Shown here: positions 9,055 through 51,838 of the stretch, piece after piece
Position numbering within the stretch: the stretch's first letter is position 1
Layout of the letters: every line of letters begins with the position of its first letter
Source: Pontibacter sp. Tf4
Lineage (GTDB): Bacteria > Bacteroidota > Bacteroidia > Cytophagales > Hymenobacteraceae
DNA: 64,000 bases
Direction: 5' to 3'
Assembly: GCF_014212495.1 (NCBI RefSeq)
Contig: NZ_JACKZC010000008.1
Location: 1 to 64,000, forward strand
The notes under the pieces: generated by a model
Database searches by the model: none
The model's input: only the letters and a program-made list of their open reading frames with translations
Told to the model about the DNA's origin: nothing
Program-made: the position numbers and the translations under genes

Positions 9055-9092
9055 AAAAAAATCCCCGGTAGTTAACCTGCCGGGGATTTTTG
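9055..9092 (+). terminator. Terminator after clpX
   Basis: ATCCCCGG pairs with CCGGGGAT around an 11-nt loop, flanked by A and T runs. It lies about 25 nt past the clpX stop. Confidence 0.85.
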
Positions 9093-9528
9093 TTTTGTTT
9101 TATAACTATAGTTTCTAACTATAACTTGGTGCCCTGTGCCCTCGCTCGCGTCCCGCGTGTGTGAGGTACAAGCGGACTCTGGCCGCGTCTATAGATTGCT
9201 ATAGTTGAAACCTGCTAAACTATAGTTATGCATCAGCGTGGCGGGGCGCCATATGATAGCTCACACTCGCGAGACACGAGCGAGAGCGGCAACACTACCG
9301 CTCTTTCGGACATCCTTGTCCGAAAGCACTCTGTCAGGGACATCCTTGTCCCCGTGTTGCGCGTAACGCGGACAAAGAAGTCCGGAGCAGCACATATATA
9401 TTCCTGCTGGCGTGGATCTGCGATCCGTGACTTACTATAATAGTGGATCTGCGATCCACTGGGCGGGACGCCCAACTATAGTTCATCACGAGCGTGGACG
9501 CTCGCGCCATAGTCTGACAAACTATAGT
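9093..9528. repeat. Repeat-rich intergenic block with serial mini-hairpins
   Basis: No gene is credible here; small ORFs merely cross repeats. A 25-bp inverted repeat with 3 mismatches lies at 9141-9165 and 9260-9284. Then comes a run of short perfect hairpins: 9283-9304; 9303-9326 (loop TCCT); 9337-9352 (TCCT); 9369-9384; 9414-9426 and 9442-9460 (both loop TGC); 9461-9473 (GGA); 9490-9503 (TGGA). Six CTATAG palindrome cores are interleaved, three of them perfect AACTATAGTT (for example 9104-9113). The hairpins share loop types and flanks with others in the window but differ in stem sequence. Confidence 0.7.
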
Positions 9529-10056
9529 TTAATCCAGGTCTCTGTCGCCGCGCTTCAGTTCTTCTACCGAGCGCATTACTTTATCTTTCAGACCAGACTT
9601 ATACTTCTCCAGTTTGTCCGCTACGGCGGCGTTGGTTGTGCCGATAATCTGTGCGGCCAATATACCTGCGTTCAAGGCACCATCCAAAGCAACAGTAGCA
9701 ACAGGTACGCCACCCGGCATCTGAAGAATTGATAGTACAGAATCCCAGCCATCAATAGAGTTGCTTGACTTTACCGGCACGCCAATTACCGGCAGTGTCG
9801 TTAGCGATGCCACCATGCCTGGTAAGTGTGCAGCGCCACCAGCTCCGGCAATAATCACTTTCAAGCCTTTCTTGCGGGCCTGCTCGGCATACTCGAACAT
9901 ACGATGCGGTGTGCGGTGCGCCGAAACTATAGTTAGTTCGTAAGGCACGCCCAGCGTTTCCAGAATTTCTGCGGCGGCATCCATTACTCTAAGGTCAGAC
10001 TGGCTGCCCATGATGATGCCCACTAAGGGTTGTGTATGTGTTGTTGCTTCGGCCAT
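9529..10056 (-). CDS. purE: N5-carboxyaminoimidazole ribonucleotide mutase
   Basis: PurE moves the carboxyl group of N5-CAIR to C4, giving CAIR in de novo purine synthesis. The 175-aa protein has the class I signatures GSQSDL near the N-terminus, SAHRTP (about 45-50) with the catalytic histidine, and AGGAAHLPG (about 71-79). It works directly after PurK, which is encoded 3 nt upstream (10060-11190), so the two are translated from one transcript. Class I PurE together with PurK indicates the two-enzyme bacterial route rather than the animal-type class II enzyme. Confidence 0.97.
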   Translation of the reverse strand: MAEATTHTQPLVGIIMGSQSDLRVMDAAAEILETLGVPYELTIVSAHRTPHRMFEYAEQARKKGLKVIIAGAGGAAHLPGMVASLTTLPVIGVPVKSSNSIDGWDSVLSILQMPGGVPVATVALDGALNAGILAAQIIGTTNAAVADKLEKYKSGLKDKVMRSVEELKRGDRDLD

Positions 10057-14144: not shown

Positions 14145-15944
14145 CTATCCTATCGGCAGTTGGGTTGCCGGGTACTTGTAGGCGGTTGTGGTGGCGCGTG
14201 TGCTCAGGGCGAGTGCCAGTGTCAGGGTTCCTACCCTGCCTATGTACATTGATAGGATCAGCACAATTTTACCTACATCCGACAGGCCGGCAGTTATACC
14301 CGTACTTAAACCCACCGTGGCAAAAGCCGAAACCTGTTCTATAGCCAGCCGGATAATATCGTATTGCGGATCGGAAATGGTAAGTATAAACAGAAAGGCC
14401 ATATTCAGCAGCGCTGCAAAGGCAAACACGGTAAATGCTTTATATGCAACTGAATAGGGTACTGTGCGCCGCCCTATCTCGATATCCTTCTTGTTCCGGA
14501 TAGTAGCCGACATCGCCAGCAGGATCACAACAAATGTAGTGGTCTTGATACCGCCCCCCGTTGAACCCGGCGACGCCCCGATAAACATCAGGAAAATGAA
14601 CATAAAAAGTGTGGGCGTAGCAAGCTGCGAAATGTCCACACTGTTATACCCTGCCGTACGGGTAGTTACCGACTGGAAAAAAGATGTTATCAGCGCCTCG
14701 GCAAAACTTAAACCTGCCAGGGTACCATTATATTCCAGGAAAAAGAAACCCACCATACCCAGCAGGATCAGCGCAGCCGAAGTATAGATGGTGATCCGTG
14801 ACAGGAGCTTCCAGTTGCGCCAGGGTGTTGCCATACGTGTGCGCATCGCCTTCGGAGAAAGCACATCCAGGATAGTGGGGAAGCCGATACCGCCAAATAT
14901 GATGAGGAACGCAATGACCAGATGCAGGATATAGGAAAAGCGCACCGGTTCGGTATACAAACTGGCCGGGTACAACGAAAAGCCTGCATTACAGAACGCC
15001 GAAACCGAGTGGAAGATAGAGTAGAATATTTTGCTGCCCAGGCTGGTAAATTTCACGTCGGTGCCCCAGGTCATAAAAACGATCACTGCCCCGATGCCTT
15101 CTATCAGGAAGGTCAGGTAAACCAGTTTGCGCAGAAGGCCTTTGGATGAGAAGAGGGATTCGCCGTCCAGCAGCTCGTGTATGGCTACGTGTTGTCTTAT
15201 ACCAATGCCCCGGCGCATCATCGAAGCAAAAAAAGTAGCAAAAGTAAGGATGCCAAGCCCTCCCATCTGCACCAGTAACAACAGCACCACCTGCCCCGAA
15301 AACGTGAAGTACGTGCCCGGATCTACCACGGCCAGACCGGTTACACAGGCAGCACTGGTAGCCATAAACAAGGCATCCAGAAAAGGCATGTTGCCCGGCA
15401 CATTTATCATCTTCGGCATCATAAACAACCCGGCACCCACAAAGATCAGGACCACAAAGCTGAGTATGAACGCCACGGAGGGCTTTATCTGCATCGCCCG
15501 GATGTGAATGCGCGTTTCCAGGAGCTCGACGGTAAGCAGCACCAGCATATACAACGACACTACCACCCTGTAAAGCTCCACCGACAACGGAATGTCGATG
15601 CTCTCGAAGAAATTGTAAACAACAGGCGTGTTAAAGATATAGGTACCTACCTGGTTAACCAGTATGATGAGCATAAGCAGCCCTTCGAACCAGGTGCGCT
15701 TCAGAAACTTTTTCCGCTCGAAGGTATACAGAATGCGGAGCAGGTAGATGAAAACAAAAACAGCTAAAATAGCATCTATCGCTATGAACAGAAATTTTAT
15801 AGTTTCCGGCTTTTCCGCAATACCGTGGGCATAGATCAGCAGACCTACCGAAAGGATGGAGAGCAGGTACGTTGTGCGTCGCATCAGGGTGTAAGCCCCG
15901 CGTTTGGTATCGTAAAGCGCTCTGTTTAGTTTTTCTGTATTCAT
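14145..15944 (-). CDS. TrkH/KtrB-family potassium channel subunit (second copy)
   Basis: A 599-aa membrane protein of the TrkH/KtrB cation transporter family. The four pore loops are visible: SAACVTGLAVVDPGTYF, SVSAFCNAGFSLYP, SVTTRTAGYNSVD and VSAFATVGLSTGI, with the selectivity-filter glycines. Compared with classical TrkH it has an N-terminal extension of about 150 residues with extra membrane helices. It is closely related to the neighbouring gene at 15978-17786, 33 nt upstream, implying tandem duplication. These channels need a cytoplasmic RCK partner (TrkA/KtrA); none is encoded in the window. Confidence 0.93.
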   Translation of the reverse strand: MNTEKLNRALYDTKRGAYTLMRRTTYLLSILSVGLLIYAHGIAEKPETIKFLFIAIDAILAVFVFIYLLRILYTFERKKFLKRTWFEGLLMLIILVNQVGTYIFNTPVVYNFFESIDIPLSVELYRVVVSLYMLVLLTVELLETRIHIRAMQIKPSVAFILSFVVLIFVGAGLFMMPKMINVPGNMPFLDALFMATSAACVTGLAVVDPGTYFTFSGQVVLLLLVQMGGLGILTFATFFASMMRRGIGIRQHVAIHELLDGESLFSSKGLLRKLVYLTFLIEGIGAVIVFMTWGTDVKFTSLGSKIFYSIFHSVSAFCNAGFSLYPASLYTEPVRFSYILHLVIAFLIIFGGIGFPTILDVLSPKAMRTRMATPWRNWKLLSRITIYTSAALILLGMVGFFFLEYNGTLAGLSFAEALITSFFQSVTTRTAGYNSVDISQLATPTLFMFIFLMFIGASPGSTGGGIKTTTFVVILLAMSATIRNKKDIEIGRRTVPYSVAYKAFTVFAFAALLNMAFLFILTISDPQYDIIRLAIEQVSAFATVGLSTGITAGLSDVGKIVLILSMYIGRVGTLTLALALSTRATTTAYKYPATQLPIG

Positions 15945-20019: not shown

Positions 20020-21060
20020 CTTATTCTGTTACACACTTTCCAGAAAGCACGGCTGTAATATGCGGGTACCTCCTGGTTAGCCAGGTAAATTGCCAAATTG
20101 TTCTGAACGAAGAAAGAGATCGGTTATAAAATCCGGATTTATAGGTTGGTTGCAGGTGGAATGACTGGATTTTGGTTTAATGGGTATGGTCCTGTAGTTA
20201 CCTCACCCCAACCCTCTCCTAAGAACAGGAGAGGGAGATTGTTCTGTTGCTATAGTTTGAACTATAGTTAGCATATATGTATCCTATCCCAACCCTCTTG
20301 TCTGAATCAGGATTTTCTGGATTACCGGCTTTGTCTATAGTTAGAACAGCTATAGTTACTTTTACTCTTTCGCTGGCGCGGGTTTGCAACCCGTGCCTAC
20401 CTATAGGGTTGAATTTGTAACTCAACTGACCCGGCAGAGACAGGAAATTCGATGTCTTTAGCTATAGTTCTACATTTACGAGACAATAGACCCCTGCCCC
20501 TCTCAAGAGGGGAATTGCTACTGTTGCTATAGTTTGGTTTATAGTTTTATAGTTTGTGTGGTCCAACCACCCCTGCCCCTCCTTATCCAAGGAGGGGAGC
20601 TCTGACATTGCTATAGTTTAAGCTATAGTTTTATAGCTCAGACCACGAGCAGGACAGGTCGCGACCTGTCCCTACAGAATTACATCCACGAGAAAACCGA
20701 TCTGCCACAGCCAAGATCAAGGAAAGTAACTATAGTTTAAGTAGAAGCTATCGAATATGATTTCAGTCTTTGGGTTGAGCGCCTTTGACTTGTTGCAGTG
20801 CCGCAGGCAATCCGAGGTACGAGGATAGCAAGAAGGCAGCAGCGCGATGCCCGAAGACGGGGCCTCCCGGCCCCAGAGGGAGCCAAGTAAACTATAGAAC
20901 AGTAGGTGATTAGAGCTCCCAGGATTAGAAGCAACTATAGAAAGAAGGCTTGGTTCAGATAGTAGGAAAAGCAAACTATAGGACATATAAGATTTCTCGA
21001 CTACGCTCGAAATGACAATAGAGAAGCTAAAAGTTTTGCTTTCAACAATTGGAAGACAAA
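20020..21060. repeat. Large intergenic repeat block 1
   Basis: About 1 kb without a credible gene; ORFs here cross repeats. It holds fourteen CTATAG palindrome cores between 20.2 and 21.1 kb and three C-rich/G-rich hairpins (20212-20235; 20497-20512; 20576-20597). There is also a TGC-loop hairpin at 20379-20393 within GGCGCG/CGTGCC caps, a perfect 20-bp palindrome GGACAGGTCGCGACCTGTCC at 20652-20671, and copy 1 of an interspersed element (about 20638-21021) whose second copy is at about 27094-27500. Confidence 0.7.
20638..21021. repeat. Interspersed intergenic element, copy 1
   Basis: About 380 bp matching 27094-27500 in order: GAGCAGG palindrome area, CCACGAGAAAA, the core TCTTTGGGTTGAGCGCCTT, a GC-rich core (GCGATGCCCGAAGACGGGGC, then CTCCCGGCCC and GAGGGAGCCAA), ACTATAG-linked segments with TAGAG(C/T)TCCCAGG, and the end GAAATGACAATAG. 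Conservation is patchy: short cores are nearly the same while the spacers differ. The GC-rich core can fold (GGGGCC/GGCCCC). It encodes no protein that I recognise. Confidence 0.65.
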
Positions 21061-45074: not shown

Positions 45075-45520
45075 GCTGATACTTTTACTATTAACAGGGT
45101 GCAAAAGTAGCAAGAATAGCCAAGAGTTTTCCCGGTTTAGCAGAATTGAATTACATATTCTAACCAACCAGTAAGTATAGGCTTGAAGCTTTTATCAGAA
45201 ACACGCATTTATTTGTAAAGCATAAGCTTGCCAACTGGAAAACTAGCTGGTGTTTACTGAAGAGTAACCATACCGCCATTTTGAGCGCAGCGGTAACTGG
45301 TGGTTGTATTTGGCGGCAGTTTGCAACTGCCAAAACTATAGTTTAAGGTTGATACGCCAGTTACAAACTGGCACCATAGTTAGCCACAAGTTACGCTGGC
45401 GCTAAACTGTCGGGATACAACACTTTATTATATTAAAATTCCATTAAAATATTTGATTTTTATTGCGATTACATTTCAAATCCTGTATATTGAATAATTG
45501 CTAACTATAATCAAAAGAAA
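45075..45520. other. Intergenic region with two mini-hairpins
   Basis: About 450 bp with no credible gene. A TACTTTTG promoter element (45102-45109, minus) serves the pseudouridine-synthase-like gene. Two short hairpins resemble those at 9.4 and 20.4 kb: 45315-45331 (GGCAGTT, loop TGC) and 45356-45372 (GCCAGTT, loop ACA), with a perfect AACTATAGTT between them. The rest is A/T-rich DNA before the next start. Confidence 0.55.
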
Positions 45521-51390: not shown

Positions 51391-51838
51391 TTGTCTGAAT
51401 CAGGATTTACAGGATTTTAGGATTAGCTGGATTTCTGCTTGAGTCAGGGTTAATGGGCATTTTTAGGGTTGGTCGGCTTCTATTGTAGGGACAGGTCGCG
51501 ACCTGTCCGTGGGTAAGTTTTAACTATAGGACTATACTTTCAACTATACCAACTGCAGAAATTCCCCTCTCGGGAGGGGCAGGGGTGGGTTAAAAAGTCA
51601 ACTATAAAACTATAGCCAGCGCCTTTGCAATTCCTGTCCCTGCCGGCCCAGTTGAGTCAGGAGACTCAACACCATAGTAAGTCACGAGTCTGGAGACTCG
51701 CGCCAGCAGGCGGGTTTCGGAGCAAGGACGCTCGCGCCAGCAGAAGTTTATTTTTTGATCCTGAAAATCCAATAATCCTGAAAATCCTGATTCAGACTAT
51801 ATTTTACTAACTTGATAGCCACTTCTAAAACTATATTT
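51391..51838. repeat. Intergenic repeat block 3
   Basis: About 450 bp, no credible gene. It has an AGGATT-type repeat (51392-51425) and its inverted counterpart (51755-51795), so the block is framed by the pair. There is a perfect 20-bp palindrome GGACAGGTCGCGACCTGTCC at 51489-51508, also found at 20652-20671. A C-rich/G-rich hairpin is at 51564-51579. Hairpins with AGGA and TGGA loops and CGCGCC flanks lie around 51650-51740. Only two CTATAG cores appear. Confidence 0.65.

Follow-up and report, generated by a model that had tools for sequence, protein, structure and literature searches.

Hairpins of the window

The window analysed here, a stretch of 64,000 nucleotides from Pontibacter sp. 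Tf4, contains a run of short hairpins at 9283-9503 whose loops and flanking caps are shared and whose stems differ from one hairpin to the next. The initial annotation read this as structure being selected and sequence not, and the question raised by the locus is what kind of element carries such hairpins and how free the letters of their stems are.

All the hairpins listed in that annotation are present in the sequence, and the array exceeds its shuffles both in density and in folding. A script (stem of at least 5, loop of 3-4) recognised 5 non-overlapping hairpins in the 221 bases of 9283-9503; 2000 dinucleotide-preserving shuffles averaged 0.41 and never gave more than 4. Folded as single-stranded DNA, positions 9291-9510 reached -50.5 kcal/mol, the shuffles giving -30.9 (sd 3.4; z -5.75). 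Along the array we distinguish H1 (9303-9326, stem CTTTCGGACA, loop TCCT), H2 (9337-9352, GGGACA, loop TCCT) and H3 (9369-9384, CGGAC-AAAGAA-GTCCG), which has a mismatch beside the loop and was missing from the initial list. They are followed by hairpin A (9414-9426, GGATC, loop TGC), hairpin B (9442-9460, AGTGGATC, loop TGC, of the GGATC type), hairpin C (9461-9473, GGGCG-GGA-CGCCC, identified by eye) and hairpin D (9489-9504, CGAGCG, loop TGGA, of the GAGCG type).

Related hairpins had been claimed around 20379, 45315, 45356 and 51650, and they are indeed there. The capped hairpin GGCG-CGGGTT-TGC-AACCCG-TGCC occupies 20375..20397 on the plus strand (stem-loop 20379-20393). A CAGTT-family pair, given without strand, spans 45315..45372 and consists of GGCAGTT with loop TGC (45315-45331) and GCCAGTT with loop ACA (45356-45372); its pattern GCCAGTTNNNAACTGGC occurs 25 times in the Tf4 genome and is present in 41 of 50 genomes of the genus (control 0). 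Finally, a two-hairpin unit on the minus strand at 51651..51704 reads GGCG-CGAGTC-TCCA-GACTCG-TGAC, a spacer and then GTTGAGTC-TCCT-GACTCAAC; its hairpins had been listed as GTTGAGTC-AGGA at 51651-51670 and CGAGTC-TGGA at 51685-51700. The same two-hairpin layout recurs at 15235-15287 of locus L014, with stems GAGTT and GAGTC.

Other repeats lie near the hairpin-rich stretches. Hairpins of the form CCCCTC/CCTCTCC...GAGGGG at 20212, 20497, 20576, 26830 and 51564 adjoin CACCCCTG/CAGGGGTG and are unlike any stem seen beside a RAYT gene, and a degenerate repeat, TCTGAATCAGGATTT / CAGGATTTTAGGATT, is found at about 20300, 51390 and 51760.

Caps, loops and stems

The pairing of the stems was assessed with a caps-only pattern, TGGCGCG N11-12 CGTG[AC]C, which leaves the stem unconstrained and was searched in the whole Tf4 genome. 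It matched in 53 places, versus 0 for the backward control, so that the proposed caps are real and recur outside the window. Four perfect inner stem pairs were present in 45 of these matches, with pairing complete only by G.T in 4 and a mismatch in the other 4; when the 3' stem halves were redealt in 1000 trials, four-pair matches averaged 17.4 and never exceeded 26. REPs are defined by a GT[AG]G foot together with a palindrome of variable composition (PMC3686654, in the passages concerned), and these complementary regions of variable base composition agree with the second part of that definition. This search was taken as the fair test of pairing instead of alignment A3, where the count of 100% paired cells was set aside because its rows had been preselected as paired, and where the numbers of pair types and of changed pairs lay within the range of its own shuffles. 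In alignment A2, MAFFT misplaced the loop gap by one column and only the rows with three-base loops were used.

Regarding the stem letters, seven sequences cover 43 of the 53 matches: GATC (19), GGTT (6, all perfectly paired and of the type found at 20375..20397), AGCG (6), AGTC (5), AGTT (3), AGCT (2) and GAAA (2). With rare exceptions, each stem is combined with a single loop type. Since the paired stems are few and the loop is mostly tied to the stem, the pairing is preserved and yet the stem is not made of arbitrary letters but labels the family. The simplest view is that the stem marks the identity of the transposase by which the element is copied. Thus, the part of the initial annotation that spoke of constant caps and loops, differing stems and pairs that change together holds, both in these 45 matches and in the paired changes between clpX and purE described below, whereas its statement that sequence is not selected does not, given the seven stems and the link of stem type to RAYT lineage.

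Elements between clpX and purE

The array sits between two convergent genes which we take, from their sequences, to be clpX and purE. The stretch 9137-9510 between them is an insertion hot spot that holds three abutting elements, none with a RAYT gene.

Element 1 (9137..9298, given without strand) is a relic of the CTCGCG type. Its left end (9137-9186) is identical to one end of the Tf4 RAYT locus L004 at 45 of 50 positions and its right end (9257-9298) to the other at 37 of 42, and it is this agreement of both ends that identifies it as a RAYT-less relic. Against 200-base pieces drawn at random from the window (300 in all), the best background value for the left end was 26 versus 75; for the right end the best values were 59 and 57, from pieces probably covering the site itself, and then 19, versus 59.

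Element 2 (9300..9392, plus strand) belongs to the GGACA family and is made up of H1, H2 and H3. The same array, in the same order and with similar spacers, stands directly upstream of the RAYT genes L033, L046, L048 and L071 of relatives, and GGACA RAYTs were found in other species only. Its pattern TTCGGACANNNNTGTCCGAA occurs 5 times in the Tf4 genome and in 19 of the 50 genomes (control 0).

Element 3 (9406..9510, plus strand) carries the four hairpins A-B-C-D between GCTGGCG and CGCCAT. Hairpin B was found in 14 places among the 50 genomes, 8 of them in Tf4 (9406-9510 included), 3 in G009 and 3 in G015, and the A-B-C-D layout was seen at all 14, with A, C or D altered in some. A and B carry GGATC, and C and D carry GGGCC or GGGCG and GAGCG. 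The element is a chimera of two end types, GGATC joined to GAGCG; GAGCG RAYTs were found in other species only and no GGATC RAYT was found. As in a REPIN, A and D of these 14 GGATC elements are inverted to each other over a span of about 105 bases. Of their 28 A and D hairpins, 24 were detected by the script, and 18 of these 24 have all six pairs.

PurE was found in 50/50 genomes and 30 of its loci were examined, 24 of them uninformative because clpX is not in the locus. In the 6 comparable genomes the site bears arrays in 5 (Tf4 included) and is empty in 1, G013, whose clpX and purE are separated by 80 bases without any hairpin. Between the filled sites the stems differ on both sides at once. 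H1 is GGACA/TGTCC in G000 and G018 and GGACT/AGTCC in G009 and G029; H2 is GGGACA/TGTCCC in G000 and GGGGATT/AATCCCC in G018; H3 has ACT/AGT in G018, ACA/TGT in G009 and G045, and the mismatched ACA/AGT in G000 and G029. Partial decay is seen in some of these homologous hairpins (H2 in G009, G029 and G045; H1 in G045).

RAYT genes and stem types

The Tf4 genome (4.45 Mb, 23 contigs) encodes four proteins that match Y1_Tnp (PF01797), and a profile built from 30 family members recovered six RAYT-like genes, the sixth weakly (24.5 bits). The NCBIfam cut-off for REP-associated tyrosine transposases was passed by 7 of 9 tested proteins, L158 and L159 of Tf4 scoring below it. By profile, the nearest solved structure is that of TnpA-REP (4er8), with a whole-sequence E of 6e-7 and no significance for either stretch alone. 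Residues H60, H62 and Y144 are invariant in 30/30 aligned RAYTs and presumably correspond to the HuH motif and the catalytic tyrosine.

Each of the six genes adjoins hairpins whose stem is its own. Those of L001 are CGAGCT with loops TGT/ACA/GCA and those of L004 are CTCGCG with loops TCC/GGA. L002 (CCGGT and (G)CGAGTC/GTGAGTC) and L003 (CGAGCT, loops TTC/GAA) have perfect hairpins on one side only. L158 is accompanied by GTTGTTGGTG, and L159 by GGACAGGT, with one copy upstream near the gene start and another inside the open frame. RAYT genes beside the same hairpins, in Tf4 (L001-L004, L158, L159) as well as in relatives, together with the HuH residues and the tyrosine, are the features of a RAYT/TnpA-REP system.

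Across the genus, PF01797 matched in 43 of 50 genomes (Tf4 included) and the family profile in 44. A further 129 PF01797 loci were sampled from the other genomes, a few of them IS200-type relatives. The tree sample comprised 133 loci, of which 3 lacked a RAYT frame (leaving 130) and 15 fell short of 120 aa or were weak, so that 115 RAYTs entered a tree built by a quick method, 112 with a stem label and 3 without, L158 and L159 of Tf4 being absent. On this tree the majority stem tip changes 27 times, versus 73-86 in 200 label shuffles. Most of the genus RAYTs examined have hairpins close by with stems specific to their clade. In relatives, GAGCG hairpins flank the RAYTs L074, L107, L109 and L112 on both sides, and CAGTT hairpins do so for L044, L050, L053 and L062.

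None of the four Tf4 RAYTs on the tree falls inside the GGACA, GAGCG or CAGTT clades, and the stems of L158 and L159 are different; in the Tf4 genome no RAYT was found beside GGACA, CAGTT, GAGCG, GGATC, GGGTT or GAGTC+TTGAGTC hairpins. The hairpin lists of the 130 loci contained no RAYT with capped GGATC, with the GAGTC+TTGAGTC unit or with capped GGGTT, the hairpin of 20375..20397; the vicinity of L036 has one GGGTT hairpin, of 5 bp and without caps.

The association was also followed in named RAYT loci (the best 80 of 327). At least two hairpins sharing a four-base stem tip within 300 bases were present at 39 of these 80 loci and absent from the other 41, versus 0 in a Markov control. Judging by the names, nearly all their titles belong to Bacteroidota. 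One RAYT of this group, L226, is in a record named Aggregatibacter segnis, which we take to be the one clear non-Bacteroidota title among the 80 and which reflects either transfer or a mixed assembly.

Copy numbers were higher in genomes with the cognate RAYT (one-sided Mann-Whitney, genomes uncorrected for kinship): for GACA the median was 4 in 8 genomes with it versus 0 in 42 without (p 2e-5), for AGCG 24 in 13 versus 3 in 37 (p 3e-4), and for AGTT 10 in 14 versus 2 in 36 (p 0.002). Tree and hairpins together served for a manual assignment of RAYT presence, which counts broken genes and may miss some RAYTs; the GAGCG RAYT in G003 was assigned from coordinate nearness, and the GAGCG pattern gave one control match in each of two genomes. 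Hairpins also occur in genomes with no assigned cognate (11 of 42 for GACA, 28 of 36 for AGTT and 28 of 37 for AGCG). Tf4 is one of them for three families, with 5 GGACA, 25 CAGTT and 28 GAGCG copies. Such copies fit either RAYT loss or action in trans; in Tf4 the cognate RAYTs may have been lost. In all, five partly overlapping patterns matched in 53, 25, 28, 8 and 5 places of the Tf4 genome, and 9/9 capped hairpins in 464 kb lay outside the ORF mask, in agreement with the numerous and almost wholly intergenic occurrence of REPs.

The palindrome AACTATAGTT

The palindrome AACTATAGTT is expanded in the same genome, with 1477 copies versus 4 for the backward control. Within the genus it has 1087-1300 copies in G009, G015, G018 and G029, 330 in G045, 232 in G013, 104 in G049 and 0-28 in the other 42 of the 50 genomes. 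It is found in the window at 9474-9483, 9520-9529, 9925-9934 and many more positions, and AACTATAG occurs there 138 times versus 2.3 expected. In most of the GAGCG elements shown it forms the spacer between C and D (9474-9483; L299-L311), and two genomes that lack the expansion also have it next to GAGCG hairpins (G004:C10:170825 and G007:C41:73948).

The copy at 9925-9934 is inside purE, where the codons ACT ATA GTT form AACTATAGTT in 8/8 expansion genomes. The other 22 purE loci have 0 palindromes and mostly encode the same T-I-V with other codons; hence, synonymous changes seem to have created this site. The palindrome resembles HIP1 of cyanobacteria (PMC4390886) but is limited to a few species. 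Among the literature matches listed for the letters of AACTATAGTT, all concerned malaria markers.

Comparison with known systems

The elements resemble the REP/REPIN-RAYT systems, as portrayed in the relevant parts of PMC2817692 and PMC3686654 (see also PMC3116915), in being short intergenic palindromes of variable composition and many copies, in their inverted pairs, in the adjacent rayt gene and in the higher copy number where the RAYT is present. RAYTs are moreover described as coevolving with their own REPs (PMC2817692, PMC3686654, in the sections cited). The differences, on the same descriptions, are that known REPs start with GT[AG]G whereas the hairpins here mostly lack this foot, that many ends here have at least two hairpins, and that one element joins two stem types.

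Concerning the foot, GT[AG]G was found at 28 of the 409 hairpins that surround 125 RAYTs, within the 9-28 of scrambled tetranucleotides (AGTG 28, others 9-21). As the main hairpin families here do not have it, they are filed as a REP variant and not as strict members. A scan of all tetranucleotides brought out no single foot and was dominated by A-rich, terminator-like contexts; its GTAG rows came mainly from the GGACAGGT and AGACGCAA families. These are separate families with the canonical foot. A REP of the form GTAG-GGACAGGT-CGCG-ACCTGTCC is located in the window at 20652..20671 on the minus strand, with a second copy at 51489..51508 on the plus strand, and its cognate is most likely L159, since GGACAGGT hairpins are found upstream of and inside that gene. 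GTAG-AGACGCAA-NNNN-TTGCGTCT hairpins, for which no Tf4 RAYT could be named as cognate, were seen at L005 (2661, 3477) and L006 (2864).

Another close precedent is TnpA-REP subclass 2.6, which the available part of PMC6006769 presents as mostly from Bacteroidetes, with atypical hairpins lacking GT[AG]G that were found by hand. It is alike, by this description, in genes flanked by footless hairpins with copies elsewhere in the genome, and subclass 2.4 of the same source is alike in its double-foot REPs and in REPs inside the gene, as in L159. The stem families, multi-hairpin ends and chimeras reported here go beyond what that part of PMC6006769 describes for both subclasses. The GTAG/CGTC palindromic superfamilies, in the account given by the portion of PMC3733652 that covers them, are likewise sorted by stem and loop and show complementary stem changes within families, unlike most families here in having the GTAG foot. 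Among the open-licence papers listed, none was on such elements in the genus Pontibacter by its title or the start of its abstract. The elements are of a known kind, REP/REPIN with RAYT, in a variant form marked by a near-absent foot, multi-hairpin ends and a chimeric element.

Interpretation of the hairpins

The hairpins are very probably the ends of REP/REPIN-type non-autonomous mobile elements, copied now or formerly by HuH transposases of the RAYT family. Judging from the family name and the distant match to TnpA-REP, a RAYT would recognise, cut and copy them: it would read the folded single strand through the flanking cap, the loop and the three to four loop-proximal pairs, and would cut and rejoin close to the hairpin. 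Each RAYT lineage has its own stem; successive visits by different RAYTs would leave several stem families with similar caps, and within a lineage the loop-proximal pairs would drift by compensated steps.

The reading of the initial annotation takes them for structured RNAs or regulatory hairpins retained for the benefit of the host, under selection for structure but not for sequence. It draws on the strong folding and on the paired changes at homologous hairpins and among copies. This reading is extremely improbable because the stems fall into a small number of discrete sequences linked to RAYT genes, the counts vary widely within the genus (TGGATCNNNGATCCA in only 3 of 50 genomes) and one orthologous site has no array; in addition, the sole Rfam match at gathering score in the 64-kb window is a tRNA, and no pointers to a small RNA were found. 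The position between convergent genes would also suit transcription terminators for clpX and purE. However, all 6 aligned species, the array-less one among them, retain another hairpin with T after it (9063-9085, CCCCGG...CCGGGG), and the hairpins of 9303-9504 have no T run directly behind them, so that this role, with intrinsic terminators judged by eye, is very improbable. The variable stems mark different transposase families and not a new kind of RNA.

A further alternative accepts the same mobile elements and is compatible with the preferred explanation, concerning how the stems change. They could be replaced by gene conversion instead of stepwise compensated mutation, and donors exist, as the new stems (GGGACA vs GGGGATT) match stems beside RAYTs of the genus; the mismatched H3 intermediates (ACA/AGT) of two species are nevertheless what stepwise change predicts. 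We regard conversion as possible, without favouring it.

Returning to elements copied by RAYTs, a more speculative extension, which we hold to be rather unlikely, is that the RAYTs of this Bacteroidota lineage switch specificity through compensated stem changes at all ends, that the three to four loop-proximal pairs are the recognition code, and that the GGATC/GAGCG chimeras were mobilised in trans after RAYT loss. In a bolder form, the spacer palindrome AACTATAGTT and its clade-wide expansion may share one single-strand processing system with the hairpin elements.

These results give details of the atypical RAYT hairpins of Bacteroidetes, which earlier work, going by the part of PMC6006769 cited above, could find only by eye. 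Moreover, a single genus yields a set of 115 RAYT proteins, 112 labelled by stem, in which the question of how hairpins are read can be posed, and what a small HuH transposase reads out, whether structure, loop or stem letters, becomes approachable by correlation.
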